Of a stretch of DNA of 51,749 bases, positions 6,201 through 44,035 are shown piece after piece. The notes under the pieces are model-generated. The model worked only from the letters and a program-made list of their open reading frames with translations. It was not told where the DNA came from and did not search any database. A program made the position numbers and the translations under genes. Location of the stretch: the NCBI GenBank assembly GCA_000467715.1, contig AJFK01000494.1, positions 1 through 51,749 of the forward strand, written 5' to 3'. Every line of letters starts with the position of its first letter. Within the stretch, counting starts at the first letter, position 1. The DNA comes from Hysterium pulicare CBS 123377 (Eukaryota; Ascomycota; Dothideomycetes; Hysteriales; Hysteriaceae).

Positions 6201-6995
6201 ACATTTTGATATGCTTTCAAAGCTTCTGGGAATTTTCTCATGGAATAGCTCACTCTAGCCTTCCCCATCATAGCCATTATGTTTTTCCCACCTGAAGTTC
6301 GGAGGGCATCTTCAAAGCACTTGGAAGCTTGTTTCAGAGTGTCCGTGCGCTCCGTACTGATCTGCGACCCTGCGCGGGATGAGGAAGGGGGTTGAAGAGA
6401 GGCGCGCAACAGATAAAGGACACCCCGTGCGAGAAAAAGTGGTGGGTATGAAGGGCTGATGCGCGAAGCATCGTTCAAGACGCTGGTCGCCGCTTGAATG
6501 TAGAAATCCTTGGTCCTAGCCTCGGAGGGCAGGACTCCATCTGTTTGCAGTTAGAATAAGCTGTAGACAAACAGTACGACAAGTGCGCAATGAGTTCATA
6601 CCTGTTTTGACTCTGGGAGCTTCTCGACACTTGAGTAGATATAGCCAACAAAGGGCATTCAAAATGCTCAGTCTGTCGTCGGCGCGTCCTCTCGTCAAAG
6701 CACCCACAGCTTTAGTAAGGACTTCGATGGCGACGTCCACCTTCTTCTGCTTGGCGTAACCAAGAGCGACGACCATCCACATACTCTTAGCTGCCTCTTC
6801 ATTTTCTAACAGGGTGCAGAGCTCAGTTGGATCATCCTGAATATCATCGTCCAGAGAAATTTCGACATCGATCGGTCCATCCACTTCGGCGACGGCAACC
6901 GAGATGGCTTTGGGTATATCGTAAAATCGCGGAGGGTAGGGCGAGGCATCGTGGCCGTTGATGCCATTGGCGTAGCCTTGGTGCACGGCAGCCAT
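3212..6995 (-). CDS. CTR9: RNA polymerase II-associated protein CTR9 (Paf1 complex TPR subunit)
   Basis: This encodes the TPR scaffold of the Paf1 complex, which travels with RNA polymerase II and supports H2B ubiquitination and H3 methylation. Exons: 6995-6602, 6540-6083, 6027-4423, 4373-4239 and 4180-3212, giving 1186 aa, near the family size. The start is MAAVHQGYANG; an in-frame TTG 27 bp upstream is not needed. Tandem TPRs run from about residue 80 to 900, including the classic AIENYEAAL recreated across intron 3. From about 950 to 1025 there is a charged coiled coil rich in EER/KR, then a Lys-rich and an acidic Ser/Asp/Glu tail to the end (GGDYDSE), as in CTR9/p150TSP. Intron 3 uses the weak donor GTTGGT, needed to keep the TPR frame; a nearby GTAGCG would break it. 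It is divergently arranged with SEC8. Confidence 0.95.
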
Positions 6996-7458: not shown

Positions 7459-10400
7459 ATGTCTCGAGTCCCCCAGTCCGTACCAAGAGGAGCTAATGGC
7501 TCGGGAGGGTACACGAATGGATACTATAATGATGGAGGCTCTCGGCAGTACGATACAAATGGAAACGATCGTGGATATAGGAACAGACCTGATGCAGGGA
7601 CTCGAAGCAACCGCCGACCTGGTGGCTACGGCGGATTGTCGTCCTCGACGCTCGAAGACGAAACCCCTCAAGTAACGAGACCTACGAGTCTAGAACGGAC
7701 ACAGGCGAAGAGAAGAAGCGGGGGAGCAGATTCGAGTCGGAGTAGAAGCCGACCCGGCGCTGGACGCTATGCTGATGGAAACCAACAGATTGAAGGTCAG
7801 TAGGATCAAAAAGTTTCCAGCTTTAGTAGGAATGAGTTGCAGACCCTGGCTCGAACTGGAAGCTCGCATTATTGCGCGTATGCTGACCCAGAATTAGAGG
7901 TCCTACAGTACATTCGGCGAGACTGGGATTTTATGACGACCGACAAATGTATTCCCGTGCAAATATCTCTCAAATTATTAGATTCCAGCTCCCTCGGGCT
8001 TGCAAACGAATACAGTCAATTCCGTGATACGAACCAGCAGTTGCAAAGTGCATTAAAAGCTATTGTCAATGGTACACCTCACGCGCCATCTCTCGAGCCG
8101 GAGACGCTGACCTGTCCACAGAGCACCATCAGGGTTTCAATAGTTCCATTGGAACTTTTCATAAGATACAAGCAAGTCTACAGTCTTCTCAACAACGGGT
8201 TAGAACCCTCAAAGAGTCTCTTGTCTCGGCCAAAACCCATCTAGCCACAACAAAGCCGGAGCTAAAAGAATTCGCAACTTCTTCGCAGAACTATGATGAA
8301 ATGCTTCAAGTATTAGGCGTAATGTAAGGCTTAATAATCAACCTGTTAATCTTAAAGATTGCTGATAATCGAGTAGTGAGCAATTACAGCTTGTGCCCGA
8401 AAAGTTGGAAGCGCGCATTTCAGAGAAGCGCTTCCTGACGGCCGTCGAGATCCTTCAGGATGCGTTAAGGATGATCCGGAGGTCAGAAATGGAGGGAATT
8501 GGCGCACTTAGTGACCTTCGGATCTATCTGAGTAACCAGGAACATGTGAGTCGCTCTGAAGATTTTAATAGATCGCTTAATAACCCGGCTATAGTCCCTT
8601 ACCGACATCTTGATTGAGGAATTGCATTCCCATTTGTACCTAAAATCTCCTTATTGTGAAGACAGATGGAAATTATACGCACACAACCAGTCCAACAGCG
8701 ATGCCGCTGAACGGGCAAAAACTTTCATTGGTAAGTGATCCAAAAGCTGGCACAGTATCGTACTTATGAATACATTCTAGACGCCAGAGGGAGACTTCTT
8801 TACCTTTTTCTCGATAAGTTGGACGTTTCTGAGCCAGTAAGTGTTCACACGATATATTTGATGCAATTACTCATACCCCTTTAGATGGCCGACGATTCCT
8901 CTCGCAACCCAGAAGCCGACACATTCCATTATATCAGACTAATAGTCGAAGCTTTAAACAAAATGAGCCGCCTAGATATCGCTATTGATACCATCGAGCA
9001 ACGACTGCCAGTTGAGTTATTCAAAGTTGTCGAGAAATCCAACAATGAAGTAGCACAACGACATCCAAGCACCCTGAGAGCCTATGCCAACAAGCCCCGT
9101 AGCAAGGCTGATGCGATTGCTGATGGCGACGAAGCCCGCACGGCACTACTGAACGATCTACTTTGGACTCTTTATGCCAGATTTGAGGCTATTGCAGAGG
9201 GTCATCGCGTCGTACATGACGTGGTATCTGGAATCACACGCCGGGAACACCTTCAGGACGCTTCTACACTAACGAGGGGATTTAAAGAATTATGGAAATT
9301 GTATCAGAGTGAGGTGAGTGTTGTATAAATTACAAAAATACAAATATGCTAATGAAATGTTATAGATGCGTTCTTTGCTTCACGATTACCTTGCCACTGA
9401 TGGGGATCTATCATATCGAGGCGTGCAAGGGCAAAGTTCCAGCGGAAGTGTTTTCCAGAGAGGCCAGCGTGATCGCAACAAAAGAATGTTTAAATTAGCC
9501 GATATGGATGTCAAATCGACAGAATTGGCGACTGAAAGGGATGACCTAGATTTCATCTTGAAATCATCAGTGCCTGGGCTGGTTTCAGACTCAAAGAGAC
9601 CGAATGGTTTATCTTCGAGCAACAGTAACACTATGGTCGATGGCAGTGCGACTGGACACAAATTACTCGTTGATCCCAGCGTTTTTAACATGGGTGTCCT
9701 CCTACCTCCTTCATTGGACTTCCTTAATCGATTGAAGGAAGTAGTACCCCCAGGATCGGACATCGTCATGAGTACCTTGACTTCATTCTTGGATGACTTC
9801 CTCGTCAATGTCTTCCATCCGCAACTCGACGAAACTCTCGTAGATCTATGCGCGCAAACATTTATCGAAATCGACGCTTTCCAACAAGATGCACAATGGT
9901 CACATCACTCCAAAAGACCTATATTCAGGGTATGTTTCATCTCTCAAGTCCAGCCCCAATCTTTTTCATCTAACACGAATAACCAGGGAACGACCAAATT
10001 CTTCAATCTCATCACGGCATTCTGCAAAATGCTAGACAATCTCCCTCACGACCAAGCCTTCAGTCAACTCATCATCACCCAAATGGAAACATACTACTCC
10101 AAATGCAGCGGCTGGTACAAAGCCCTCGTCAGCCGCAGCCAACCCAAACCCACAACAAACCGCCGCTTAAAGGCCTCCGCCGCCCTCGCAGAAGCAGAAT
10201 CCATCCAAGAAATCCTGAGTCCGCTCTTCAAAGGAACCACCTCGTCCAACACCCCCAAGAATAGCACCGAAAGTCCCGCGGGATCTGAAGAGGAAGGAAG
10301 AGGGGAAGTAGAGAAGGGAAAAGATCTCCTCACCCAAGAAATCCAACTCCTAATCTCCGCCGCCGATGCCGACGTCCTAGACGCCGCAGACCTAATCTCC

Positions 10401-11243
10401 GATCTCAAAGCCATTCGTGGCCTCTGTCTCCTACACACAAGCATGAAATGGCTCTCTCTAAAGCTCTCTCATTTAAGATACATATCCGACCGCGCAACCG
10501 ACTCTCAAAAGCCAGGCAAGAACAACCGTCGCTGGACTTTAGTTTCTGCGTCCAGCGAACTACGCTCGAATGGCGATGCGGGGCAAACGCGGGTTTTTCT
10601 ACCCCTGGATAGAGCGACGGCGAAGGATTTTGATATGATTGTAGAGGAATATACTAATTTCTCCGACCTGGTCCTCCGCACCCTACACCTCGAGCTCCGA
10701 AACCGAATCCTCTACTCCCTATCCAGCAGCCTTAGATCCACCTACACACTCGATCAACCTCCCTCAGACCCGGACACGGCCATCATTTCCTTGAACTCGG
10801 AGCTCGTGGCTTTCGACAGCGAACTCGGCGCTACGATTCCGGAAAGGGAACAAAGGATTGTGACGAAGGGGTTGGGGAAGCTCATGGATCGCGCGCTTTT
10901 GCATCAGACGAGCCATATATCGAATATGAACGGCAACGGGTGTAGTCTGCTCCAACTCAACATCCTCGTCCTGCAGCAGAATCTTAAGAATATAGAGGAA
11001 GATGCCGAGCTCACCCGTTCCGCAGCGTACTTTGATCTCTTCAACGCCGGCCCCGAAGCTATCGTACAGAGGGCGAAAGAAGGAGGGAAAGATCTTGGGT
11101 TTAGTTTCGAGGAACTGGAGGGGTTGGTGAGGTTGTGTTATTCTGAGCGGTTGGAGAGTGAGAGGAGGGAGGTTGCGTTGGCGGGGAGGAGGGGGTTGGA
11201 TGATCATCTTTTGCAGTTGAGTGAGTATATGTGGCAGAGTTGA
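7459..11243 (+). CDS. SEC8: Exocyst complex component SEC8
   Basis: Sec8/EXOC4 is a subunit of the octameric exocyst, which tethers Golgi-derived vesicles to the plasma membrane at hyphal tips. Nine exons: 7459-7795, 7898-8071, 8122-8323, 8377-8545, 8595-8730, 8781-8836, 8885-9313, 9366-9929 and 9987-11243, giving 1107 aa. Residues 1-110 are low-complexity Gly/Asn/Arg/Ser. The conserved Sec8 domain then begins with YIRRDWDFMTTDKCIPV and continues through AIVNEHHQGFNSSIGTFHKI and KTHLATTKPELKEFATSSQ. The C-terminus, DHLLQLSEYMW, also matches the family. Intron 1 (102 bp) ends at attag at 7897, preceded by the branch-like tgctgac; this choice restores IEEVLQYIRRDW. The 57-bp intron 9930-9986 is a multiple of three and lacks a stop, so it could be read through, but removing it restores RPIFRGTTKFFNLITAFC. 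Confidence 0.96.
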
Positions 11244-11650
11244 GATTTGAGGATTACGCACGTCGAAACGGAGTGTTGGTGGAGTTAGTCTTCGCTTTTT
11301 GTTTGTACTCGGATATGGGGGTAATCTGGGTTATTGAAATATATATTTCCGCCATCTTACGAGCGCTTTTGTTCAAGCTTGTCACCAGAGATGGGCCACC
11401 TTGGGTTCTCACATCGACGTCGTTTATCTGCGAAGTTTCGTTTCTTTCCTTCTGTACAATTGGTATGTTTGGTATTGAATACACATTTCTCTGTCGTACA
11501 AGCCACGCGAGATCATCGTGAAAAGCCATCCCGCTCATCAACATGAAGCTCAGCCCAAAATTAGAGTCGTTCCGGGATATCTAGACCCCTAAAATACCTC
11601 GTCTAGCTTCCATCACTTTTGTCCAATCCTCAACCCACACCCCTCTTTAT
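11244..11650. other. Convergent 3' intergenic region (SEC8 / acid phosphatase)
   Basis: About 400 bp between two convergent genes, presumably with both 3' UTRs and polyadenylation signals. No gene was recognised. Confidence 0.5.
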
Positions 11651-13087
11651 CTACGCTTTCACGCCCCCATTGCTCCCAGCCGGACTCGCGCGCGCCTTCT
11701 TACTAACAAGTCTAAATCCACCTAAAAGCATAATCGCAGCCAACGTGCCCAACACAACAGCCAACGTAACAAAAGCACCAATGACGCCTCCAATAGCCGC
11801 AGACATATGGCTTCCGCCTCCGTTCTTACTACTGCTCGGGGAATTGGTAGGAGTGGAAGACGGTGCGTAAGCGGCGCATGTGCCAGTGGTATTCCCGCAC
11901 GCCGTACACCATTCCTGCGTCGTGGAGACAGCGAATTTATTCAAGCCATTGGAGAAATCAGTCCATGGGATGGCGATATCACTGCCTCCGAAGAGCGGGT
12001 ATGCGACTGGTTCGCTGGTATTCGAGACCGTGCCGTTGTGGAAGAGGAAGCGGACTTGTAAATCACTAGTCGCAGGGAACCCTCCAGTGGGCACAGTGGC
12101 GTTCGTGAAGAGCTCGAAGATCATGGCTGAAGCGTAGTCGGGCACGCCGCGGAAATCGGGGTTCGCCTTGTCGAGTTGTGCTAGACCGAAGAAAGAGAAG
12201 AAAGTTGCGTAGGCGCCGAATTGGATGCCGAGTTTATTCGCACTGGAGCCTGCGGTGCCGGACTTTATGGTGCTGTTCAGGTATTGCAGGACCTCGCCAG
12301 CGAGCTGCATGCCGCCGATGGCACGCATGTTGTCTGAGGCGTTGTAGGCCAGGCCCCATTCGTGGGTGTCGGCGAGGGTGCGGGTTTGGAGGAGGGTGGC
12401 GTTTGTGAGGACGTCGGAGGAGTTGATTGTCTTGTTGTGGATTTCGGCCACGTTGATTAGGTCGAAGATTGTGTAGGCGTTTTTGTATGTTACGGTGCTG
12501 GCGTTGAATGTGCCGTTAACTACGGGGACCAGGTCTTGGTAGAATCCTTTGGTGGAGTTAAGAAGGCCCATGTATTCGGCGCTGGTGAAGTAGTTGTTGG
12601 AGCTCGTTTGGGCGTTCGCGCAGCCGGTTGAGGCTTGTAGCCATGTGCTATCTTCACTTCCAGTTCCACTGGTGGCGATGTTCACAGGGATTATTTGGTA
12701 TCCGTTCATGGTGGCCGGCACAGTATTGCCATTTGCCAAGGTCTGAACGCCCTCAGTGTCACCAACGGGAGGATATAGGCCCTGGGTGAAGCCCATTGCA
12801 GAGCTCTGGAGGACATTATCGACGGGTGCAGTCACGGAAAGCTGGGAAAGCTTGACAAGGTCGGGATTTAGGCCATGAATCTTAGTTGAGCCGGTAAGCC
12901 AGCGCGAACGGAACCATTGACCAGAGCTGTAGACTTGTTCGTAGCCCAGAGTGGTCAAATTTGCCGGAGCGAGGGATTTGGGTGTGCGATCGCCATGTCG
13001 ATGGAACATGTAGGCGCCAAGAAGGGTTTCGGCGGCCTCCGTGGAGGTGAGGAGGGCCAAGAGGGGTAGGAGAGTGGTGAATTGCAT
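11651..13087 (-). CDS. Membrane-anchored histidine acid phosphatase family protein
   Basis: This single-exon gene encodes 478 aa; the start MQFTTLLPLLALL gives a clean signal peptide, and the open frame reaching 13114 begins only with a TTG. Residues 1-18 are the signal. The catalytic histidine-phosphatase motif RHGDRTP lies at 30-36, close to the mature N-terminus as in phytase-like acid phosphatases. Many N-glycosylation sequons follow. A Ser/Thr/Asn-rich linker leads to a single transmembrane helix at about 428-457 and a short basic tail (RLVSKKARASP), so the enzyme probably faces outward on the plasma membrane or vacuole. The C-terminal His-Asp proton-donor motif is not visible: the aligned place reads KLGIQFGAYATFFSFFGL, followed by the usual PDYASAMIFELF. 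Activity or specificity may therefore differ from phytase. It diverges from PIG-P. Confidence 0.9.
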   Translation of the reverse strand: MQFTTLLPLLALLTSTEAAETLLGAYMFHRHGDRTPKSLAPANLTTLGYEQVYSSGQWFRSRWLTGSTKIHGLNPDLVKLSQLSVTAPVDNVLQSSAMGFTQGLYPPVGDTEGVQTLANGNTVPATMNGYQIIPVNIATSGTGSEDSTWLQASTGCANAQTSSNNYFTSAEYMGLLNSTKGFYQDLVPVVNGTFNASTVTYKNAYTIFDLINVAEIHNKTINSSDVLTNATLLQTRTLADTHEWGLAYNASDNMRAIGGMQLAGEVLQYLNSTIKSGTAGSSANKLGIQFGAYATFFSFFGLAQLDKANPDFRGVPDYASAMIFELFTNATVPTGGFPATSDLQVRFLFHNGTVSNTSEPVAYPLFGGSDIAIPWTDFSNGLNKFAVSTTQEWCTACGNTTGTCAAYAPSSTPTNSPSSSKNGGGSHMSAAIGGVIGAFVTLAVVLGTLAAIMLLGGFRLVSKKARASPAGSNGGVKA

Positions 13088-13663
13088 TTTGACTAGCCAA
13101 TTGCGAGGGATCAAGGCAATGAAGCTGCACGGAAGAGAGGACGATGGGAGGAAACAGCTCTACGTGAGAAGATTGGGAGCCATCAGCTTATCTATGCGGC
13201 CGGGGAGCTCTTCTGATGGACATATTGGGCGGGGCACACGACCGAAGGCGGCCATGATAGCTTCGCAAGGCGCATCGAGGGGTGGGATGGGTTAGAGATG
13301 CTATTCGCCTTCCGGATAGCCCATGCCGCCGCCGTCCAATCGCAGCAGCTCGGATTGCTCTTCGGCCTGCCGCTTCTAGAATCATGGCCGCTGCTAAGAG
13401 TGAGTGAGCTGCTGGAGCGCAGCAAACTCCACGGAGATGGTGAAGATTCACTGCATTGGAGAGTCCGTTGCCTGTGTACGTGATAGGACATGTAAGAGAT
13501 GGTGGTGTTGAAAATTGTCTGACACTACCTGCAGGCACCATCGAACCGATGGCCTGTGAGCGCGCCGAGCCGGTCGCCAAAATTTGTGCGATGCGGTCCG
13601 AGATGTCGGGTCCTACATGCTGCACACCACCAAGAACCACCTCTCTCCATTAGCATCGCCGTC
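13088..13663. promoter_or_regulatory. Divergent promoter region between acid phosphatase and PIG-P genes
   Basis: These 576 bp lie between two divergent start codons. Several overlapping ORFs exist on both strands, but none has recognisable protein features. No clear TATA box is visible. Confidence 0.5.
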
Positions 13664-14791
13664 ATGCCACCCCAAAGCAGAGGCAACTCCTTGCCAACGG
13701 GATTCCAGTCGAAATCCACTCCCAATCTACCCACTTTAAGCTCTCTAGAGGTCTCGTCTCCCAACAATGCCCCTCCACTTCCTGAGCCAGCGACCGCCCA
13801 TCCGCTGTCCGACGCGACAACCACATCGCCATCCGAGCCAGCCTCTATAGAGGACAACCTCCAGGATGAGGATCAGGATCCTTTCACTTTAAAGCCATCA
13901 TCAGATTCCGACTCCTCAGATGAAATGCTCAGCCCGCCAACAACGAGACCTCTTTACACCTCACGCTCGCACACCCACCTTCCACCGCATACCGCCAGCA
14001 CTCTATTCCCGCCCTTCTACAACCGACCTCCAACACCGCTCCCGCCATCTCCCTCACTAACATCTCTCCTCCGCCCCTCCTTCAGCACGCAAACCTCCCG
14101 CCCCACAACCCCCGACTCCTCAGACGTCGACGTCCCCACCCCAACATCCACAACCACCAATCTCGCCAGCATAACCAAGTCCGCACGCCATGCACCCACA
14201 GTCCCACGCGCCTCGCCCAAGGTCCCAACATACGAGTACTACGGTTTCGCACTGTACCTAGCCAGCTCGGCCGCCTTTCTCATGTACATACTATGGGCGT
14301 ACGTTCCTTCACCGCTGCTGCATCAGATGGGCATACACTACTATCCGAATCGATGGTGGGCACTCGCGGTCCCAGCCTGGCTCGTTGTGACGCTTCTGTA
14401 TATCTACGTTGCGCTGGCGAGTTATAATACCAAATACCTAACCCTACCGCTCAGCAGTTGCGAAAATTTAGTCGATGAGTGCGCTCAAGTGGCGGTGTTA
14501 GACCGGCGGTCGGGGAAGATTGTTCGGAATCGCGGTGTTGGGAAGGAGAAAGAGCGGGAGAAGGAAGTTGAGCATGGTGTTGGGAAGAGCGGTAAGGGAG
14601 GCGGCAAGGGAGGTGGGAAGGAAAGTGGGGGTTTATTGTCCACGTATCAGTTTGGAGCTGATGAGGATGTCGATTGGAAGAGGCTTTGGAGTATTGGTAC
14701 TGATGCTGTTATGGATGTGCCGATCGGTGGCGTTTGTGAGATATTGTATGGGGTTGGGAGGGAAAAGGAGGTGTGGGAAGATATGGAATAG
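13664..14791 (+). CDS. GPI-GlcNAc transferase subunit PIG-P/Gpi19-like protein with long N-terminal extension
   Basis: PIG-P is a small membrane subunit of the ER enzyme that transfers GlcNAc from UDP-GlcNAc to phosphatidylinositol, the first step of GPI-anchor synthesis. The intronless ORF gives 375 aa. Residues 1-185 are Pro/Ser/Thr-rich and presumably disordered. The PIG-P domain starts near 190 with YEYYGFALYL, contains two transmembrane helices (about 193-215 and 231-255, with PNRWWALAVPAW before the second), and ends with VPIGGVCEILYG near 351-363. Between them is a Lys/Gly/Glu-rich insertion (about 285-325). Animal and yeast PIG-P are only about 130-160 aa, so both the extension and the insert are unusual. 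The start at 13664 was chosen because upstream in-frame codons look like UTR; an in-frame ATG at 13556 cannot be excluded. Confidence 0.88.
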   Translation: MPPQSRGNSLPTGFQSKSTPNLPTLSSLEVSSPNNAPPLPEPATAHPLSDATTTSPSEPASIEDNLQDEDQDPFTLKPSSDSDSSDEMLSPPTTRPLYTSRSHTHLPPHTASTLFPPFYNRPPTPLPPSPSLTSLLRPSFSTQTSRPTTPDSSDVDVPTPTSTTTNLASITKSARHAPTVPRASPKVPTYEYYGFALYLASSAAFLMYILWAYVPSPLLHQMGIHYYPNRWWALAVPAWLVVTLLYIYVALASYNTKYLTLPLSSCENLVDECAQVAVLDRRSGKIVRNRGVGKEKEREKEVEHGVGKSGKGGGKGGGKESGGLLSTYQFGADEDVDWKRLWSIGTDAVMDVPIGGVCEILYGVGREKEVWEDME

Positions 14792-15180
14792 TCCTTCGAT
14801 GAGCCCAAACTTTCTCAGTTTCTATCCCGCTATTCGATGCGTTTGTGATTGATCGTTCACCGACTTCCCATCGTGCGAAAACGGAGACATTCCCCTATCT
14901 CATTAGTCTCCTGAGTTACTTGCTCAATCATCACACCACCAGAACCGCACACCGTCTCTTCCCCAACATCATCCCACAACCTCGCTCATCTAAGCACATT
15001 TCCACCTTTGCTAACGCACGTAAGTTCTGCCGGGTAAGTCTCCCTCTTAATGGCACATGTCTTCTCTCGTGCCATATCTCATCTATATAAACACCCTTCC
15101 CCTCGCTCTAAGTTCCGGTTTCTGCATCCACTTCAAATCTCCTCCTCAGGGGGATTGAGAGCTTCGAAAGCAGAGCTTCT
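14792..15180. other. 3' flank of PIG-P gene, no gene seen
   Basis: AT- and pyrimidine-rich sequence follows the PIG-P stop. No protein-like ORF or clear repeat is visible before the tandem-repeat domain begins. Confidence 0.4.
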
Positions 15181-15326
15181 AGACTTTGATGCTGTCTCTG
15201 AAACTCTAAGGACTTGCCCGAAATGTTTTCCTCCGTGGCCCGGTCTTGGGGTTTGAGATCTACATTCAACTTCATAGAACACTCCATTTCATTCCATCTC
15301 CAGGCCAAACTCGAGTTCATGGTATT

Positions 15327-15630
15327 GCTTCGACTTCGCAATACTTTAGTACAAGCCATCACCATGGTTCCGATCCCACTCCTTGGTCTACTAGAATAAC
15401 AGATTGGAGGATACCATGCTGGATCGGAACCGAGATTCTGCTCTCTGAACCACTTCAGGGTCCTCATCCACCTCATCATGTTTCATTTCTTGGGTTTCTC
15501 ATTCTTATGGTGTTTCTTCGACTTCGCGATACTCTATGGCGACTTTGAACCATGGTCCAGAGCCCACTCATTGGTCTACTACAAGTACACATATACGAGA
15601 GTCTCATGTTGGATTGGAACCGTATCTAAT
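15327..15630. repeat. Two-copy diverged repeat, period about 190 bp
   Basis: The segment from 15327 (ttcgacttcgcaatac, ccatggttccgatccc, ccttggtctacta, tgctggatcggaaccg) recurs from about 15517 (ttcgacttcgcgatac, ccatggtccagagccc, cattggtctacta, tgttggattggaaccg). The copies keep the same order of sub-motifs with many substitutions and small indels. Confidence 0.7.
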
Positions 15631-15686
15631 GATGCACCTCCTCGATGGCTCCCAACTTTTCCTGATCAATAGGCCTTGACGACAAG

Positions 15687-16450
15687 TGTATGTGCTGGAC
15701 TTGGATCGTGATGCCAACCAGCATGCCACCATGGCTTCCAGCTTTTCCTGTCTGGCACGGCTTTCACAATGAATCAATACGACCATATTTACTCCACTTA
15801 AATGTCTTGTTCTCTCATCTGGCTTCCAGCTTTTCCTGGCCAACAGGCCCTATACATCGAATTCATGAGCTGGACCTGGATCATAACTCGTCCCGCAACC
15901 CTATTCCATGGGTTCTGATTTTTCTCGACCACAATCTTATAAGTCAACAAGCGATGTGCTGGACCTGGATTCATATACCTGATTATGCCAGGTCGATAGC
16001 TCCCAACTTTCCTCGAGCAACAAGTGCTCCATCAGCCTAATGTGCGTTCCATGGATCATAAGCTTGACCAATCTCTCCAGATGGCTCTCAGCTCTCCGCC
16101 GAACAAGGAGATTCACCGATCTCATGTGTCGGGCTTGGACCATAAACATGCCGACGAGAAACCAAAGGGTTCTGAACTTTCCTATCTAACCGACACCAAC
16201 AACTGGTTAATGTGCCGGACCTGGATCTGAATATACCTCCAACCGCAACCCATGGGCACCGAATCTTCTTGTCCAACACATACTAAACTCGTGATGTGCC
16301 GGGCTTGGATCATAATCCCTAATTTCAATCCTCCTATGGCTTCGGAGTTTCCTCGACTATACACAATGGCAACAAGTCATATGCTGGAATTGGATCATAC
16401 ACGCGTTCGGCATCTCATCATGGGTTCCAGCCTCCCCTGTGTCACAAGCG
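15687..16450. repeat. Diverged tandem array, period about 85 bp
   Basis: The anchor tgtgctggacctggatcat and its variants begin at 15691, 15866, 15955, 16041, 16125, 16211, 16295 and 16380. Spacings are 175 (two units, the middle one eroded), 89, 86, 84, 86, 84 and 85. Each unit also carries a tggcttccagcttttcctg-like stretch followed by caacaag. Period is well kept although sequence identity between units is modest. Confidence 0.85.
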
Positions 16451-16854
16451 CTGGCTTCACCCCCATGTTTTAGCCCGAACTGCACCAATCTGAAAAGCCA
16501 AATCTGACCTCCAATACGTCAACCGCGTACAGTGGTGGGCCCGCTATGGCGGAACTTGAGAGTTACTTGATGTCATTGAATAATGGCTGTACAGCTATGA
16601 ATGGCTTTCGACCTGTCAGGCATTGATTCAACCGTAACAGCAGCTAGCCGCATGGCTCCCGCTTCTCCTGTCCAACACCAACCATTCAGGTCTACATGGA
16701 CACCCCGCCTTATTACATCCAGCGTAATCCGATGACGAATGGGTTGTTTGTGAATTGCCATTTAATACTATCTCCAATCTTGGCGGCATAGATTGAGACT
16801 GGGCCAGGTTAAGCGCCATGGTGCTTCTGGGGATTTTGCGGGATCATAAACGCT

Positions 16855-17125
16855 TCTCCAACGAGGATATGGTTCTGGCGATAGATCCTGATCAGTTCTT
16901 CAAGAATTATTGCGCAGCGTTTCTTCGTGCAGACCAAACTGTTTCAAACCCATTTTCCATGGTGGATCTCGAGTTCGGGACTTTGCCTCATCAGAACTGC
17001 CTCGCGAACGAGGACATGGGTCTGGTGACAGACCCTGATCGATTCTTCCAGAAAGTTCAGCTCGTGGCTTCTTCGTCCAGACTGAACTTCAATCCCTTTT
17101 CCATGGTGGCTTCGGAGTTCGACCC
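16855..17125. repeat. Two-copy repeat, period about 147 bp
   Basis: acgaggatatggttctgg at 16861 and acgaggacatgggtctgg at 17008 begin two aligned units. Each continues with gatcctgatc(a/g) ttcttc and ends with cccattttccatggtgg or cccttttccatggtggc. The pair is readable as an ORF at 16818-17129, but that is likely a by-product of the repeat. Confidence 0.75.
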
Positions 17126-17444
17126 TTGACGGAACCGGAAGATTAGATTGCTCTTCTTGAAAGAAAAAAACTCCTACAGCACATCCATGTCAGGCCTCTC
17201 CAATCTTGCAAAAATCTATCTCATGATCGACGGACTGCTACCAGACCTTTTATGGTTGCAGAGCACCGGTTTCCTTTATACAATCGATGGTAGTGACTCT
17301 CACATGTATTGCGCGTCTCTCTGGAGGATACTGCTGGCATCTCGTGATATCACGCTTGATTCGCCGTACCAAAATCTGAGTTCAAAAAAAGCTATGGGTG
17401 CGTCCATCTTTGCCAGCTCCAGTGTTAATCGATGTAAGAGCCCA

Positions 17445-18275
17445 GCTCATGCTGCGGATTTCCCTGGGGCACTTATGACATCTCTTATTATCATGGCTTG
17501 CAACCACCAGACGCTATGTCTTCGTCGTTCTCTTCCAGTTCGAGGATTCCACACTTCTTGAGAAACTCAGCTCATGCTGCGAGTTTATCTGGAGGACACT
17601 TCTGGCTCCCTTGGTATCTTTGTTGATCTTTCAATGATTTGCAATCGCAGACTATGGCTCCGTCGTCCTCTACTGACTTGAGGATTAATCAGCAAAGGCT
17701 CGTTAGCTTCTGATACGGATTTTCCTGGAGTATATCCATTGCATCTCCCGATATCCCGGCCTTTCCATTCTAAGCAGATTAAGACGTCATGACTTCGTCT
17801 TCCTCTTCAAACTTGAGGATTCATCAATGCCAACTTGACGTTTAATGCTGCGAATTCCCATGGGTGGTATTTCTAGCATGCCTTAGTGTCAGTGTTGGTC
17901 TTATATACTTCAACGCTCCCAGAGCTCATGGCTCTGCTCTTCTCTTTGGGCTTAAGGGTTTATCAATGTAGATACTCTAGCGTTATGCTGCGAGTTTTCC
18001 TGGAGCCCACTGTTAAGCCTATCGGGGTGTCACGGCTTTTCCGTCATTGCAAAATATGGTCCAAGGACGATGGCTCCGTCTTTTTCTACCAGCTCGAGGA
18101 TTTATCAACACAGACTCGTGTGCATATGCTGAGAATTTCCCTGGAGAATACCAGAATATGGAGAGTTTGACAATACATGGATAGACCTAGTGGAACCCAA
18201 CGACTTAGGCCTTTCTTGGGATTGCAATCTTTAGATGAAGAACAAAAATCGGAGATATCATGCGGGTTTCATAAT
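17445..18275. repeat. Diverged tandem array, period about 135 bp
   Basis: The anchor gctgcgagtttccctgg and variants occur at 17451, 17576, 17712, 17847, 17987 and 18128, spacings 125, 136, 135, 140 and 141. Units share atggctccgtcgtcctct and gaggatttatcaa sub-motifs in constant order. Confidence 0.8.
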
Positions 18276-18529
18276 ACCCCGGAACTCTCTCAGTATCGTC
18301 GTTTGTTTCCCAAACAAGCAATAGTCATATGCCCATGGCGCCGTCTTTCTCTGCCGGTTTGAGGGCTCCTCAATGCCAATGAGAAGCTACGGATATGGCC
18401 CCGTGCTGTCCATGGCTCCTGTGAACAACCCTCGAGGAGAAAGAGGATGAATGATGATTTTTCCTAGAAGTTTTAATATTTCCGGTGGTACCAAAAGCTC
18501 AACTACTCAACAATTATTGTCCTGAGAAT

Positions 18530-19900
18530 CCCATGTCTGGCTTTTGCTGGGGCTTTCTAGATTATCGTACCTAGGACATGCCAGTCATGCTACCTTCTGA
18601 GCAACTTGCAATCTCAAGCCAGGCTATGGTCTAACTGTGGAGCGGGCTACGTCATTCTACACTACCGTACGGACAGTTCAATGCCTGGCTTTCGCTGGAA
18701 AGATTTTCGATGTTGCATTATGAAGGACGAGCAAGATCATCTCATGCTTCTGTCTCCTGCACCAGACTCTATTCCATCAAGAGCCATATGCACGGTATAT
18801 CTCTCGGTGACAAACTCCGTCATGGATGGCTCTTTGTTGGAGGCTTTTGGCCTTATTACATGAGAAAAATACGCGTATATGGTTCTTCTGTTACCAGAAC
18901 CCAATTTCAGTCAACTCAAACCTATGATGATAGCTTCATATATAATTACCACGTTACCCGTGGTTGAGCTTTGTCATTTACTTCTTGCAGCCAGATTTAT
19001 GGTCTGACTCTGAGACGAGCTTCACCATTTCGCGCATCCCAACCAACCATTCTATGTGTGGTTCCCGTTGGTGCTTTCTAACGTTGCGATATACCAAAAA
19101 GACTAAAAAGTATGCTGCTATTTCCTAAACCACATTGGGATTGCAGCTACTTTCATGGTCCGAGTCCGGGATAAGCTCCTCATTTCATATCAGCCGCAGA
19201 AATAACTGATGTCAGGTTTTTCGTTGTGGCTTCCAAGGTAGCCATATAAAGAAGGACATTACGATTCTTGATGCTGGTTCTTGAACCATCAACTGTCTTC
19301 AGGTTCATGGTTAGAAAGTGATACAGACTTCATGATTTCACATCAGTCATGGAAATTATCGATGTCTGGCGTCCGCTTTTGGCTCCCGGAGTTACTATAT
19401 ACGCCAGACCTCACCTGTTGTGCTAATCATCCAAATCATACTCAATCAGACGAAGTTCACATTGTCTAGATGTGGGATAGGCTCCTTCATTCCACAACAC
19501 ATCATAGTGGCAAACAATGTTTGCTTTTCGCTGGTGACTCTCCAACGTCGCCATATGCGTATGACATCACCGAAAATGCTACCGTCTCCTAAACCAGTCT
19601 TACCTACTGAAGACAGTGTATGTCTGTCTGGCTGTGAGCTAAGCTTCGTCAATTCACTCTCATACGCACGCACGCGCGATGGAAACTCATATCAACCTTC
19701 ACAGCATGAGTTGCGGCTGCTATATGAAACAGATCTACTCAATTATGCTTTTGGCTTTTGAACTAGACTCCATCACCACCTGCATGCCTATATATATTGG
19801 ATATGGAACAAGCTTCCTCACTTCACTTAAGCAGCTCGGTATCGCGTCTGCCTTCCGCTCTTGGCTTCAAATTCCAACTGTCCGAAACCATCTGCACTTG
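18530..19900. repeat. Diverged tandem array, period about 150 bp
   Basis: The anchor atgtctggctttcgctgg and variants occur at 18533, 18681, 18822, 19054, 19209, 19362 and 19517, mostly 141-155 bp apart, with one irregular gap of 232 bp. Shared sub-motifs include tggtctgactctgagatgag and cattctcatcag-like strings. The block grades into the next family near 19.7-19.9 kb. Confidence 0.7.
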
Positions 19901-22600
19901 TATGCTCATGTCTCCTGTATCAGTCTCTCCTCACTGGTTCGATACCATCATATAGTTCTGCGCAACACGGCACATGGGTTGGACTTGTGCTTTCTCACAA
20001 ATACGATGCCCTTGAACTACTGTTCGAGTAACCTGCTATGGCTGGGTCCTCTGGAGAATTCCGTTGTTCAAACCCAACGAAGAAAGCAAGATATGCGGCC
20101 TTTGGTGTTTGCTATAGATCTGATCATACTCCCGGTGGGAATAGTTGTATGCTCGTGTTCCGCGCTCTTCCTCTTCCTAAATTTTTCATATTCACGCCCT
20201 CGCTATGAGAAACTTGGAGAACGGGTTATTTATTCGAAGCTGATGTCAGAAGGCATGCATCTACAATCATAGTTATTCGTGTCTCCTGGTTCTTCCTTTC
20301 GCCAATACTCCCATCCACTCAGTATCCATGAGAAATTTGTGGATTGAGCTCCCTTGTTGAAACCCCAAAATCGCCGACACGAAGTATGTGGGTTTTAATG
20401 TTTGCTATAGACCCAATCAAAGCCCAAATTACACGAACATCCATGCTTGTCTCTCCTGGATCTTTCTCCTGCCAACACTAGGGGTTTAAAAACGTCCACG
20501 AAAGATTTGATGGACGAGCTCCATTGTTCCAATTCGATTCATCGAGGTCGCGATGTGGATTTAGCGCTGGTTTCGAACGCATCATATGCTAGCACTCACA
20601 AGGTTCATGTCTCCTGGATCGTCTTTCTTCCAATACGAGGATATATTCGAGTTCCATGGGACAAATCTTGAGTTGGCTCCATGGATTCAGACCAACACGT
20701 CACAACATTCACGCTTACGTGGGACTCAGGTTGGGTTTTCGCCTCAACTTATCTAAACTGAAGTCTCCAACCATATTTCTAAATCCTTTTCCTTGGATAT
20801 TCTTTCTTCCAGTAACGCCAAAGCTTTAAAGGTCCCTGAGAAACAAAAAGAATGTGTCGCTTGTTCGGAAGACCCACAAATACCGAAAATGTGAGGGTCG
20901 GGTTGGCTTTCGGCCTCATCATCTTCAATTCTACGTAACAATTTTATGATGCTTTCTGGATCTATTTTCTTGCCAATATGCACATGATCTAGTTTCGAAT
21001 GAGAGACTTATGGGATGAGTACCTTTTTCAAGAATCAGACCCACATGCTTGATGTAGATTTCGTGTTGGCTTTCGGCCAAATTATAGTCCATGGGATAAA
21101 GAGCTCATGCTCGTGTCTTCTAACTCTTCCTTCCCGAAAAATGCTTCAAGCTTGATGAGGGAAGGCGGAGGATATGCTCTATTATTCAACACCCTCACCC
21201 AGATGTCACATGGGATGGCATTGGCTCTAGCCCTCATCATAGCCACAGTCACTCAGAGGCCGCTAACCTGTTCGAGTCTCCCTGCCGGATAGTCCCTCCT
21301 GTCAATACTCGAATGTCATCAAGCTCCATGAGAGACTTGGAAATGAGTCTAATTTTTCCAGAACAACCACGTCAAGATCGGCGATGTGGCTCCTGTTAGG
21401 TTTCTACCGCATCACAACCTCAATAGCGAGAAACTTATGCTGATCTCTCCCGCATCTTCTTCATCACAATACTACGAGTTCCCAGTGGTTCATGAGACTC
21501 GAAGGATCGGCTACAATGTTCAGAACGCATAGGTCAAAATGAAATATGTGGGATTCGTGTTGGTTTTCGGCTTCATCATGTAGCAAGAGTCGTCCTAGAT
21601 CATGCTCCTGTACCTATATCTATCTCATTATTGGACAGAGAGTTTCGATAGGTTGCATGGGAGTTTATGGGATGAGTCCCTTACTTGAAAACGTTCCAAG
21701 AAAGCGACTATGTGGGTTTCATCTTGGTTTTATCTCACCGTATTCAAATGACCCAGGATTTCACGCTCATGTCTCCTGGATCTTTCCTTCCTTCTAATAC
21801 GGTTCGGCTTCAGATATGATGAAAGTCGTGTGGGATGAGCTCTGCTGTAAAATTGACTTCTACCATGGAACGTGGACTCACATTCTGGCTGTATTCCTTA
21901 TACGTGGAGTCCAATTAGGGAAGTGCTTGCTTCCGGGCTGTTCTACTTTTCAATGCGCGTCGTGTGGCATTACATGAGAGACTCGCGCAATCAGTGTGTA
22001 GTCCAAATCAACGCCATGAAGATGATTATGTGGGTGCCGCTCGGCTTGGGGCCTCATTATATCCCGAAAGCTGCGCTTCTCCGCTTCTCCGCTTCTCCCT
22101 TCTGGCAGTTTCTCCTTCCAATACGATAACTTCCACAAAGTGCATCAGATAGTTGATGGATGAATTCCGTTGTAACAACTAGTCTTTCAGCACTATTATG
22201 TGAGTTTTGTGTCGCTTTCCGGCCTCATTATCCGCAATAACTCAGCAGGGAAATGCTCCCTTCCTGGATCTTTCTCTTTCCAATCCTCTGAAAAATTAGG
22301 CTCCATGAGAAATGGGAAGTTAGGTCCATTGTCCAAAACATGTCCATCACGATGAACCATGCAGGGTTCAGTTGGCTTTCTGCCTCATCATATCCAAAGC
22401 TCAGCGGCTTCCATGGTTGTTTCTTGGCTTTTCTCTTTTCCAAGATTCGGAGTTATTTTAACCCCATGGGACACTTACAGGGTCGGCTTGGTAGGTTCAA
22501 ACTTTACCATATATTAGTCGAGTGTCTGGCTTTCCATGTTGGCTTCAAAACCCCAAGTCTAAAACTTTGCATGGGCGGATCTTGGAAATAGTTCCTTTAT
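19900..22600. repeat. Diverged tandem array, period about 164 bp
   Basis: Two anchors support this array. The first, tctcctggatctttcttcc, recurs near 20443, 20604, 20786, 20949, 21108, 21269, 21433, 21602, 21760, 22085, 22252 and 22410. The second, tgtgttggctttcggcctca, recurs near 20386, 20553, 20717, 20888, 21051, 21203, 21380, 21545, 21708, 21862, 22027, 22196, 22358 and 22520, a mean of about 164 bp. Between them sits ccatgagagacttgtgg. Less regular relatives of the same motifs continue to about 24.9 kb. Confidence 0.85.
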
Positions 22601-25599
22601 TCGAATTTATGCTCAAGAAGTTGGATCATGCTGTCTTTGGAGTTGACTATACTCTTATCTAAGTCATAGCCATCCAGCATCTGGTTTTTGCTCGCAGTCC
22701 CCGGATCTTTTTCCTTTCAGTATTCGAAGTTGATCTGACTTTATGAGAGATTCTTCGGATCAGCTTGATCATTTCATATTCACTCAAAGCCAATTTGATG
22801 TCTGGATTCCGGTGTTGGCTCCAAATTTGCGTCACAGATTTCACGTGGCCGGACCCGAAGATTAGCTTCCTTCTTCAAACCTGATTCGAGAAGGTTCAAC
22901 CATGTGGTATTCGGAGTTGGTTGCCACTCCCATCTTAGTCGTAACTGACCAGCTTCTGGATGTGTGCTCGTGGTTCCTGGATCTTCCTTCTTCCAATACT
23001 CCGATTCCCTTACACTCTATGAGAGGACATGTACGATGAGCGTAACTATACAATTGCCTGCAACCCAGTTCATGTCTAGTCTCCGGTGTTAGTTTCAAAT
23101 ACTCCAACGTAACTTACCATAGCCGAATTCTGAATTGAATTTCGTCCATAATCGTCTACTTTGAAGCAATCAAGATACAATGTGTTTGTGGGGTTGGTGT
23201 TGATTTCCAGCCTCGTTATCCGCATGTAACTCGTGGGCACTCTTCTATCCAATACGTGGAGTTCTTCGGTTCCCATGAGAGACTGTGGAACATGCTTGGT
23301 TAGTCCATAAAATCCAGCAAAGCGGCATCATGCCTCCTTTCGGTGTTGACTTCACATCTTCAACATTACTTTCCATTGCCGGATTCCGGGATAATTTCCA
23401 TAAATTGATTGCTTGCATGAAAGTTTCCTATGACTGAGGTTGATGGCTTCATATAAAGCGCATGCCGCGGAATTGGGGATAGCTTGGCTGAGGGCTCGAA
23501 GAGGAAGAAGGGTCATGGGTTGGAGTTCGTATGGTTCATGAGAGCTTTGTCGAACGCGATTGATACATTCTCCTGGTCTATACAACATTTTAATGACCGC
23601 CCTCCAGTCTAGCCTGCCAAACTTGCTATAAGGATTATATGGACGACTTCTCGGATCCAACAACCCGTCTCTCTTCAAATCACGTATTTGGAGGGATGAT
23701 GTCTAGGGTTGGTGTGGCTTTTCGGCTTCATCAAATCCGTTATTGATCGGGATCCATGCCCATGTCCTCCGGGTCTTCTTTCTTTCGATACTACGATCTC
23801 GTCAACACTCCGCTGCTCACCTTCTGGCTATGGCTGGACTGTGAGATGAGCTAAGTTGATCACTGATACGAAGGAACCAGTTCCATGCCTGGCTTCCCCT
23901 TTAGGCTCACTCGTCTTCTTCCAATTCGATTACAACTCTTGACGTATATGAAGACATGGTTCGGCTTCCGTCTTCCGTCTTCTCTCTGCTAGAGCCATCC
24001 TTCCGCGCCAGTGTAAATCCATCAACAGGTCCTCAGTTTGGTTGATGGATCCCGGGACCGGTGTCGTCATCGAACCATTCACGAAGGGGCTATGATGTCA
24101 AATTCCGGCCTTGTCCGATTGGAAAAGTTTTTCAGACTATCGCTATGTTTCCTGGACCCTCCTTCTTCGACTACATGATCTCTCAACACCAGAACCTTAT
24201 GGTTCCTGGCAACATAATTGCTAGGGAAAGACGAAATATGCCTGGTTCTCGTTGCTAACTTTCAGTGTTACTTTCCACAGCAATCACAGCATAAAATCAA
24301 ACCGTTGGATACTTCGTTTTCTCTTCTCTGGCCCCATCCGTCTCACTGGTACATTCCGATTATAAGGATAGTTGCACAAAACTGATGGACCTTGGGAAAT
24401 TTCAGTCGCGCAAACGCACAAGTTGACTGTTTCACTGTATGAGGCTTGGTTCTGGCCATCGGTCTCACCATATTCATGAAAGAATAGGTATTTATGCTTG
24501 TGGTTCTTATACCATTGACGGTGCAATTGATGTCCAGTGTCTGAGGCGACCTCGCGGCTAACGAATCACTTTATGGTGGAGATATTATGCCACTAACTTC
24601 TGGACCAGCCATCTCATCACGACATGATTTCATGAACATACTTAACGGTTCATAGACCATCAGAATACCCTGCGATGGGAGTCTGGATCTCAACAGCTCG
24701 GCGCATAATTGTCGACTTTGTAGGATGTCCACCTTTGAGTCCTTTCTTTTAGGAACATGACATCTACCTAGCGGACTTTCATGCTTGATGGCCCTTGTTC
24801 GGGATTATCATTCTCCTCGGAGATGTTCTTCTGTATTCAGAAGACAGCTTCAAAGCATATTCCTGGCCAGGCTAGCGAGAGTTTTGCATTTGCAAGTTTT
24901 CAATGTCATTTCTCCATTTTGGTGTTCCAGCACTATCCACAAAGCCGGCGGCATAGTTGTAGGAATCTGGACTTCCATTACTCACCCGTATGATAGTCTG
25001 GATTTGTTTCTTTGTCTCAGAATTAGCTGTGTATCACTATCATTGTATGCTTCGTCCTCCTGGCACTGAGATCTGACTTTCTGGCTCTTTTCCAAAGCAA
25101 AATTCCACGCATGATCTGCAAAAGAGAAAAATATAGTGGGTAAAGTGATGAGAACTCTACCAGCTTCTTCGGAATATGGCTATGGTGGAGGCGGATTCAA
25201 AATTAATCTATCGAAGCAACATTTGGACATATATCATGGGGACTTGGACTTCAAAGTGGATACAATTCCTCGAATTCGTTACATGTTCGCCTTTTGGTTC
25301 TTACCGCTTTAATCGCAACATATTTCTTGTAGATTATCAGGCTCCTGGCTGGTTCGGCTGGTCGTTGTTGAAGCAGTATTCTCCCCTAATAATCCTCTGC
25401 ATCCCAACTCTCGATGAATATACTATATGCTTGGATCTGCGAGCGCTCTATAAACGAAGATTTCAGCTCATCATGTTGGAGCCGATTCTCGAATCAAGCC
25501 AAATAATGAATTCCTATGCTTTTTCTGGAGTTTAGCTCGTATCAGAACTTGCACTCCTGAAGCAAATCTACCCAATAGCCCTTCCATGCAGATCAGAGA

Positions 25600-26160
25600 A
25601 AATTTATCCACTCTCATGATGCGCCTATCTTCGGACACTTCGTGTCGCTCTTCCGTCTCGGAATCTTCAAAAATTTTAAACGACCGGATAGATTTCGGGA
25701 CATGTGTTGCGGCAGAAAAGTATCAATATAACGAGTTAGGGCCATCTCATGCAGCTTCGCTCGGTTTGGATATTCAGACACATATTGAATGTTGCTCTCT
25801 TGGGACGAACAAATACGTAATGAGCATTTACATGGAGACCAAAAGGCGGTTCTTCACAGGTAACTAACGTGCCTATAATGAATAAACTTTGCGACCCATG
25901 TCGCTCCTCCGCCTCGAAATCTTCAAAAGTCCCTATTCAACGACGGGAAATTCACCGAACCATGTCTCTCGCAGAGGAATATTGCACCAAAGACAGCGCG
26001 AACAATTCTCCTTTGCAAGAACGTCTGTGCTTGCTGTGCGTTGGGCTCCAAACCTCAGATTCGGTATCCAGAATAACTGTTGAAGAAATTTCATGTCGCT
26101 CTTCCACTCCAGTATCTTCAAATCAGACGCGTTCCTCCGCTCCGAGATGTTAAAGTTACC
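25600..26160. repeat. Three-copy diverged repeat with tgtcgctcttcc core
   Basis: The core tgtcgctcttccgtctcg, followed by aatcttcaaa, occurs at 25643, 25899 and 26094. The copies share about 40 bp of recognisable sequence; spacing is irregular (256 and 195 bp). Confidence 0.6.
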
Positions 26161-26739
26161 ATTCAGCAAGATGAACAGCTCACGTACATGTTCGTTGCTG
26201 TATACATGAGATACAGGCTGATTAGTACACTGATGCTTCAGTTTTTGATGCTTCCTGTGCGTTTGGCTCCGGTATATCATGTTCGAAATCGATAACAGCT
26301 TCCCCGGAGCTTCAAGAAAACTTTTCTCTAATTCGCCGCTCTGCCTATTACAGAGGTGGCAGACCACCATATTTCGCGTCTCCGGTCTAGACCACTATAA
26401 AACAATAGAAACAGTACCTAAGAATTTCCGCTACGGTAGAAAACAAATCAAAACTAAATGAAATCAATCATTACAGTGGACGGGCCCCAACAAATGTTTC
26501 TGGCGTGTTTGGATTTGATATCCAATTTGAACATCGCTAAGCAACTATCGTGGAAAGACTGAATGCTACTCCACTCTTCCTCTAATCCCTCAAAGCCATG
26601 ACCTAACGCTAAGACTCGAAGCGATTCATGGCCTTTGCAGTGAGTTTTGCATCAGTAAGCGTACAGGCAATACACCAGCAATTCAAGTGTCATGCTTCTG
26701 TCGGATATTGCGGTAAGATCTTGCACCTAGGTAGAAACA

Positions 26740-26900
26740 TAGAAAGTAGCTTAATTAATCAGGGAGGGCCCCCAGGGCGTTTAAATAGATCAGTAGATAA
26801 AGATAACTAATCAATAACCTCGATACAAACTACGAAGAATGTAGTTTAGGTTAGAATCTAGCCCTAGAGTCGACATCTAGATCTAGCTGCCAGATTTGAC
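26740..26900. other. AT-rich palindrome-bearing segment, possible mobile-element remnant
   Basis: This stretch differs in texture from the repeat domain. It is AT-rich, contains ttaattaa and the palindromic tagatcta, and repeats ctag-rich strings (tctagccctagagtcgac, atctagatctag). It could be a solo LTR or other element end, but I see no matching partner or target-site duplication. Confidence 0.2.
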
Positions 26901-27118
26901 AGCTTCCGTGCCCCTGTCCGGCTCGGATATTCCGGCTTCAAATCGCATGATCGCACAATCTATGCGGATCCGTCGCTCTAGACTCTCCCAAGGTCACTCT
27001 TCAATTGTGGGAGTGTGCTCCTTTCTACGGATTCTGCATCAAGAACTTAAATTAGTACTGTTGTTATTAATATTGATGTCTCCTGCGCCCCCTTCGTGGT
27101 ATCCAGCGCCGGTCCCTA

Positions 27119-37748: not shown

Positions 37749-37912
37749 AATATTGATATGGAATATATGAGGGATTTAGGAATTAGAAAGAGAATTTGTT
37801 TTCAGCTATGTTGATAAAGCATGTCTCATACGGCTATGTGTGATTCGCCTGGTCATGAAAAGTAGCACTCGAGCAATTTGTCTCCTCTTCATTGCTTTTC
37901 CCGACGTTTGAG
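37749..37912. other. Convergent intergenic spacer
   Basis: Short spacer between the ALDH gene and the oppositely oriented HET relic; nothing else is visible. Confidence 0.4.
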
Positions 37913-43104: not shown

Positions 43105-44035
43105 ATGTCCCACCACCCAGACCCCCAAACCCCCCAAACCTCCTTCCCAGACCCAACATCCACCCTCCTGAACGCCTCATGTCTAGATCTGCTCCTCATA
43201 GAACTAGTCCCCATGGCCTATCGCATGACAGTCGAGTTACAAGCTAGAGAAGACGAGTGGATTCACGGAGCGAGTTCTACGTCGCGGCCAGTGTCGACTG
43301 AGGTGAAAGGAGCTGGGACTGAGGCGGGGAGTATATCAGCTGGAGGGGGAGGCGGGAGCGGGGCTGGTGGAACAGGGACTGCGGGGGGGATGTCGACTGT
43401 AGACGAGGAAGAAGCGCGGGAGGCTGTGTTTTATCGATTAGAGTTGCTTGGGTATCGTGTTGGGTTGGGAGTGGTAGAACGGTAAGGCTTCCGTCGTCCT
43501 CATTTCCTCCATATCAACCTCCCCCAATCCAGCATCCCCGCAACCATATCTCTATCTCAATCCCAATTCTGGAACCCGGAAATAAAGTCCTAACAAAGCT
43601 AACCCACTCCCCAGTTTCTCCCGCGACAAACCCCGCCCAACAACCCCCCTCGACATAATAAAATTCCTCTGCAAAGATCTCTGGACCCTGCTCTTCAGAA
43701 AGCAAATCGACAACCTAAAAACAAACCACCGCGGCATCTACGTCCTCACAGACAACACTTTCAAGCCTCTAAACCGCATGTCCTTTGATACGAGAAAGCC
43801 TCATACCCCTTACACCGCTTCTATTCAAGGTGGTGGGGGCAGAAGAGAAGGCGATGATGCAGTAGAGGGAATGGTGAACGCTCAAATCGCTCGCGCGCAG
43901 CCTTTTTTGTATTTTCCGGCTGGCGTTATTAGAGGGTGTCTTGCGGCGTTGGGGATCCAGGCTACGGTGCAGGCGGAGACGAGTGCGTTGCCGGGAGCGA
44001 CGTTTCAGATTCGGACTTTGGGTGCTAAGGCGTGA
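43105..44035 (+). CDS. TRS33: TRAPP complex subunit Trs33/TRAPPC6 (BET3 family)
   Basis: Trs33 is a small BET3-fold subunit of TRAPP, the Rab (Ypt1/Ypt31-32) activator and tether of ER-Golgi and Golgi traffic. Exons 43105-43481 and 43615-44035 give 265 aa. Family motifs: RLELLGYRVGLGVVERFSRD across the splice, then DIIKFLCKDLWTLLFRKQID and TNHRGIYVLTDNTFKPLNRM, and a C-terminal FPAGVIRGCLAALGI. Relative to animal TRAPPC6 (about 160-175 aa) there is a Ser/Gly-rich insertion at about 60-105 (poly-Gly SAGGGGGSGAGGTG) and another Gly-rich loop near 180-195, probably disordered. The 133-bp intron splits the Arg codon before FSRD, so removing it gives a continuous family motif. Confidence 0.93.

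Follow-up and report, generated by a model that had tools for sequence, protein, structure and literature searches.

The closest described systems are Xist and NORAD, both long non-coding RNAs of mammals. Xist is a long locus with several local tandem-repeat blocks of differing monomer length (PMC6316617), and NORAD has 12 strongly diverged tandem units of ~300 nt with conserved cores (PMC4947167). The locus considered here lies at 15.24-26.30 kb of contig AJFK01000494.1 of the fungus Hysterium pulicare CBS 123377 (C379 in our numbering; genome 37.2 Mb in 596 contigs). The whole contig, 51,749 nucleotides, was analysed and is referred to as the window. Diverged direct repeats form a mosaic across the interval, and in four of its blocks conserved boxes alternate with near-random linkers, beyond what decay at a uniform rate produces. 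This uneven pattern suggests selection on the boxes; protected motifs amid scrambled linkers would point to a working non-protein element rather than to dead repeat DNA. The explanation that we tentatively rank as most likely is a repeat-modular long non-coding RNA (lncRNA) gene of ~11 kb on the + strand, the box sequences of which would be under purifying selection.

Detection of the tandem arrays

The mosaic is confirmed, with array periods near 190, 86, 147, 137, 150, 163-170 and 190-256 bp. Units of the multi-copy blocks share ~46-56% identity, and Tandem Repeats Finder (TRF; minimum score 30) called none of the 85-260 bp arrays, reporting just three tiny repeats in the interval, which shows that loci of this type can escape standard tandem-repeat detection. 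The repeats were recovered by lag spectra, gapless repeat families and self-alignment. Lag peaks are found at 188, 86 and 172 bp (15-17 kb), 146 and 137 bp (16.5-18.5 kb), 171 and 327 bp (19.5-21.5 kb), 162 bp (21-23 kb) and 274 bp (22.5-24.5 kb); the 258-bp peak in both 24-26 and 25.5-27.5 kb corresponds to the pair at 25.64 and 25.90 kb. At 18-20 kb, the peaks (12; 11 at 150 bp) stay below the shuffle maximum of 14. Outside the interval, only 1-2000, which contains a minisatellite, rises far above its 10 mononucleotide shuffles, and a slight excess is seen in the lag spectra of 4501-6500, 10501-12500, 13501-15500, 36001-38000 and 43501-45500. The minisatellites, 15-, 30- and 36-bp, were located by TRF at 440-656, near the contig start.

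Self-comparison of the window by blastn yielded 22 off-diagonal high-scoring segment pairs (HSPs), of which 21 fall within the interval, all of them direct; the best spans ~8.4 kb (54% identity, 8,437 columns, E 6e-92). Short-period repeats are under-counted by this method because the minisatellite at 440-656 went unreported. Direct HSPs cover 9,303 of 11,200 bases in the interval as compared with 2,433 of 160,056 in control DNA, that is, 18 stretches from 18 other contigs (20 were fetched and two shorter than 2 kb dropped). The control HSPs inspected lie in open reading frames (ORFs), including three similar ones in stretch L021; stretch L003 also holds one 128-bp direct pair (8155-8282 and 8519-8646) beyond those inspected. 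Another of the HSP-bearing frames is a 750-amino acid one with diverged internal repeats at 3-2255 of L003, adjoining a similar-looking 605-amino acid open frame at 2776-4593.

Iterated hidden Markov models (HMMs) of the units resolve lengths of ~86, 137, 150 and 163 bp, with no match elsewhere in the window. HMM matches and few-copy blocks together total about fifty units, partial ones counted. The few-copy blocks fit their own HMMs by construction and were therefore subjected to separate shuffle tests: none of 200 shuffles reached the 190-bp pair, the 147-bp pair, the trio at 25.63-26.30 kb or, at 22.4-23.2 kb, the spacing of ~274 bp. Between 24.14 and 24.65 kb, a proposed tandem pair of 258 bp was dropped, its score being reached by 3 of 200 shuffles and its offset being wrong. 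A sequence-only reading of this DNA had described successive tandem blocks of differing period, with copies greatly diverged; both features are borne out, the former by lag spectra, self-alignment and HMMs, the latter by unit identity and the blindness of TRF. All six periods it gave were recovered, that of 150 bp via HMM and alignment, and the autocorrelation check it proposed peaks at the array periods except at 18-20 kb.

Conserved boxes and linkers

Each unit of the 163-bp block comprises three boxes, B1 (TCTCCTGGATCTTTCTTCCAATAC), B2 (CATGAGAGACTTGTGGGATGAGCTC) and B3 (ATGTGG..TTCGTGTTGGCTTTCGGCCTCATCAT). Over 14 contiguous units, the standard deviation (SD) of conservation among columns is 0.193 and its lag-1 autocorrelation 0.339; 120 identity-matched simulations under three histories gave means of 0.14-0.16 and 0.06-0.10, respectively. 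The observed values were reached by 0/120 simulations for SD, 0/120 for autocorrelation and 1/120 for smoothed SD. Smoothed conservation falls to a minimum of 0.32 (0.30 for unrelated random sequences) and rises to a maximum of 0.63. For the 85-, 137- and 150-bp blocks (9/9, 6/8 and 9/10 units used, respectively), SD and smoothed SD were reached by 0/60 star simulations each, and autocorrelation by 0/60, 3/60 and 1/60. By MAFFT columns, the spacing from B1 to B2 is 43-44 bp in 11 of the 14 units, from B2 to B3 65-74 bp and from B3 to the next B1 47-64 bp. The view that the period was kept while the sequence decayed is thus half right; since decay is uneven beyond uniform-rate simulations, short boxes in four blocks, and not length alone, have been kept too.

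Somewhat unlikely, in our judgement, is that these are very old satellite-like expansions in neutral decay and devoid of function, the boxes being an appearance produced by variation in mutation rate, by partial gene conversion or by the alignment. Strong, TRF-invisible divergence and the failure to find RNA structure would suit such a relic, as would the unit-length SD of 5.6 bp: neutral indels at modest divergence give so small a value with P 0.29-0.85, and only for higher divergence or indel rates is unit length too even (P 0.02 or less). The box-like heterogeneity above uniform-rate simulations in four blocks argues against it, as does the CATG excess in every block group. In the main block, moreover, neighbours show no nested similarity, identity being flat with unit distance (r +0.17), unlike in histories of ongoing local duplication. 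Units of the 150-bp block are somewhat less alike the further apart they lie (r -0.27; simulated SD 0.19).

Organization and setting of the locus

The blocks and associated features are collected in Table 1. The 163-bp HMM has 26 matches, 20 of them spanning more than half of the model, and beyond 22.4 kb the good copies of block 6 are ~274 bp apart. Among 56 ordered HMM comparisons between blocks, the 150- and 163-bp units match clearly in both directions, and the 150-bp unit clearly matches the 24.1-24.7 kb stretch. Homology of all blocks was rejected: the remaining matches (85 to 163, 163 to 190, 163 to the 24.1-24.7 kb stretch and 230 to 163) score low and are not relied on. Inside the 163-bp block, TRF reports a small tandem repeat of CGCTTCTC at 22074-22103.

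Table 1. Features of the repeat locus, in window coordinates
Feature	Position	Strand	Description	Basis
Candidate 5' end of putative + strand transcript	14930..15160	+	leader-like C/A-rich stretch, then CT-rich stretch	by-eye reading, motif positions
Block 1	15240..15619	+	2 units of ~190 bp; 65% identity over 188	lag, self-alignment, shuffles
Block 2	15648..16424	+	9 units of ~86 bp, each with two boxes: GGCTYCCAGCTTTTCCTG; ATGTGCTGGACTTGGATCATAA	HMM
Block 3	16828..17109	+	2 units of ~147 bp; 76% identity over 134	lag, shuffles
Block 4	17310..18430	+	8 matches of ~137-bp unit, one partial	HMM
Block 5	18533..19953	+	10 matches of ~150-bp unit, one partial; homologue of block 6	HMM
Probable old short insertion in block 5	18906..19046	+	core 18924-18986; relatives on C427 and C486	
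Block 6	20059..23356	+	~163-bp units; partial matches up to 23805	HMM, alignment
Three short stretches like the 150-bp unit	24238..24612	+	6.1-9.7 bits; no tandem pair	
Block 7	25634..26300	+	3 copies, spacings 256 and 195 bp	self-alignment, shuffles

To the left, the interval is flanked by PIG-P (+ strand, ORF end near 14.79 kb) and to the right by a zinc-cluster regulator (- strand, domain-bearing ORFs at 29.0-31.2 kb); domains in the window include PIG-P, Zn_clus and Fungal_trans, some of the ORFs being split, a combination that would fit a filamentous ascomycete. A search for 5.8S rRNA as a taxonomic marker gave no match. At the 5' edge of the interval, GTAAGT occurs twice (15020 and 15034), a TATA box, TATATAAA, lies at 15084, and CTCCTCCTCAG, with the CT-rich stretch, near 15157.

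Shared motifs and sites at the DNA level

CATG occurs 114 times in the interval as compared with 64 expected (rest of the window: 185 vs 185). It exceeds 1.3 times expectation in 7/7 block groups, CATGG and TGGCT in 6/7; these motifs come top when all 4- and 5-mers are ranked, with no null for the ranking, and the last two block groups contain one CATGG copy each. TGGCTY is found 38 times on the + strand (8.7 expected) and 7 times on the - strand (3.7 expected). ATG is among the most constant columns of the 163- and 137-bp blocks, as is AT.TG among those of the 85-bp block; the 150-bp block lacks this feature. A basic sub-period of ~44 bp, derived from CATG spacing, was not significant and was discarded.

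Such motifs could serve at the DNA level, as repeated sites for DNA-binding or chromatin proteins in a boundary, silencer, recombination or origin region, which we hold to be unlikely. Enrichment of the palindromic CATG and CCATGG, excesses of TATATA (5 vs 1.5) and of CRE-like TGACRTCA on the - strand (4 vs 0.5), the near-constant B1-B2 spacing and the negative structure searches are compatible with it; the motif scan covered some 35 motifs, and its excesses are uncorrected. The boxes, however, exceed the length expected for one factor, composition bias is strand-specific, and motifs for GATA, heat-shock element, CreA, stress-response element and PacC are not clearly enriched. Dinucleotide periodicity adds nothing in its favour: around 10 bp, the AA/TT/TA power of 1.1 is within the control range of 0.99-1.45, so that nucleosome phasing, envisaged by the sequence-only reading as phasing via chromatin, was rejected for want of support.

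Copies elsewhere in the genome

Uniqueness of the locus in the genome is weakly tested. Searching the genome for consensus units, as had been proposed, revealed no second array, at a low recovery of known units, so that diverged copies elsewhere would escape: a typed consensus unit hit six places, all within the array, of some 20 such units there. Pieces 14791-17300, 20200-22600 and 22500-25700 match only themselves in the genome, and piece 25600-27560 matches itself and, through a 206-bp element that lies outside the array, copies of that element. This MITE (miniature inverted-repeat transposable element)-like element (26697-26902; ends CTGTC...GACAG, by eye) recurs with 90% identity at C215:11111-11317, and C455 carries a partial match to it. 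Piece 16470-20300 also matches C427:21254-21297 and C486:7646-7710; the common stretch of 65-140 bp corresponds to ~18.91-19.05 kb, where an insertion into block 5 is probable because the unit spacing is widened. The 3-kb surroundings of both matches are free of self-repeats.

A small-RNA precursor or sponge, with the ~25-nt boxes as guides or target sites, is very improbable. Box length and sequence conservation without structure would agree with such a role. With up to 3 mismatches on both strands, however, none of the three box patterns is matched outside the array: B3 gives four matches, all in the array, and B1 and B2 give none, the array itself included, which makes theirs a weak test. 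Hairpins are not in excess on average.

Coding capacity and mobile elements

By the tests made, the interval is non-coding. ORFs of at least 100 amino acids are as frequent as in second-order Markov (Markov-2) sequences (12 vs 12.4 expected on the + strand, 3 vs 3.1 on the - strand). Period-3 values are 0.1-3.0 across 31 interval tiles; for comparison, two genes (nine tiles) gave 1.1-6.8 and two further non-coding stretches (seven tiles) 0.2-2.5. None of eight longer ORFs has a Pfam match above cut-off (one is sub-threshold at E 0.046). The earlier claim that protein genes are absent is thus upheld by ORF counts, period-3 and Pfam alike. The least probable explanation is the remnant of a repeat-protein gene, for which + strand ORFs of up to 209 amino acids might speak and against which stand the Markov-2-like ORF counts, mostly low period-3 values, conservation without clear 3-periodicity across units, box spacings varying by 1-2 bp and the missing Pfam matches.

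Coding domains and interspersed copies of the whole interval, as expected of a transposable element, were not found; that transposon features are absent is nearly right, one short copied element lying inside and the 206-bp MITE-like element just outside. A relic of repeat-induced point mutation (RIP) was rejected, the composite RIP index of eleven 1-kb windows at 15-26 kb ranging from -0.68 to -1.07. A tRNA scan of the interval was empty at standard cut-off, and a hammerhead-like reading of GATGAG...CAAAAC was abandoned because Rfam listed no match of this type, even with E allowed up to 10.

A putative repeat-modular RNA

The putative lncRNA gene could have arisen and functioned in the following manner: The locus would have grown as one local tandem duplication followed another, each block acquiring its own period. 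Copies would then have diverged in their linkers, with boxes of ~20-35 nt being kept, many of which have ATG or CATGG/TGGCT at their core. The putative RNA may carry tens of similar unstructured sites at which a partner RNA or a sequence-specific RNA-binding protein would dock, and may act as a scaffold or decoy. Uneven decay, the flat similarity with unit distance in the main block, the excess of CATG, CATGG and TGGCT and the lack of an ORF excess count in its favour. Strand signals agree weakly with a + strand transcript: (i) the + strand contains 53-58% pyrimidine in 7/7 block groups (41-63% in other 1-kb windows); (ii) in conserved columns, C>T amounts to 78/579 as compared with 46/506 for G>A (p 0.028, uncorrected); (iii) GTAR occurs 26 times on the + strand vs 40 expected (z -2.2), as compared with 85 vs 63 in a control region; (iv) the TATA box and the two GTAAGT lie at the 5' edge.

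Several observations weigh against the lncRNA explanation. The box evidence comes from paralogous units of one genome, a MAFFT alignment and simple simulations. The strand signals were chosen from several looks without correction, and an A>G vs T>C asymmetry is absent (p 0.60). TpA observed/expected ratios of 0.55-0.78 are near the 0.71 of the window and hence uninformative. Neither conserved RNA structure nor consensus pairs were found on either strand, and mean folding z over 69 tiles is -0.05 (+) and 0.07 (-), although z is below -2 in 4 + strand tiles vs 0/65 control tiles. Rfam gave no match at gathering score and five at E up to 10 (best E 1.3), none a ribozyme. Pumilio, DSR, Ssd1 and Nab3 motifs are not in excess; CTGGM (53 vs 26.8) and CTTTC (37 vs 23.8) are, yet lie partly inside boxes.

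If the lncRNA explanation is correct, repeat-built functional non-coding loci extend to filamentous fungi, in many of which gene deletion is feasible, and the role of tandem duplication in making non-coding RNA would become directly testable.

Relation to known systems

Like satellites and higher-order repeats, the array consists of direct repeats arranged head to tail, with periods that in part approach the nucleosomal one; it differs in its high divergence, in its uneven conservation and in that no second locus was found at the sensitivity used. Literature searches brought up nothing recognised as a comparable fungal locus; the term 'tandem' does not occur in the excerpted text of PMC12921299. 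With repeat-modular lncRNAs, the locus has in common the lack of protein-coding capacity and the diverged tandem units with conserved cores; conserved structure or known sites of RNA-binding proteins were not found in the units. Neither is a known requirement for all repeat-modular lncRNAs.

A chain of diverged units with conserved cores is shared with NORAD. In NORAD, Pumilio sites and stem-loops make up these cores, whereas neither a Pumilio excess nor a consensus structure was found in the present locus. The mosaic of tandem blocks with different monomer lengths resembles that of Xist (PMC6316617), which is mammalian, whereas the present locus is fungal; the likeness is one of architecture. 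Both RNAs illustrate how a design of this sort can function, and the relation to them is one of analogy, not membership. Possible, though doubtful, is the more specific view that the locus is a fungal architectural counterpart of Xist and NORAD, an 11-kb non-coding RNA gene: seven blocks, several not detectably related, that share a CATGG/TGGCT core, by deep common descent or by convergence, and would together form a selected multivalent docking platform.

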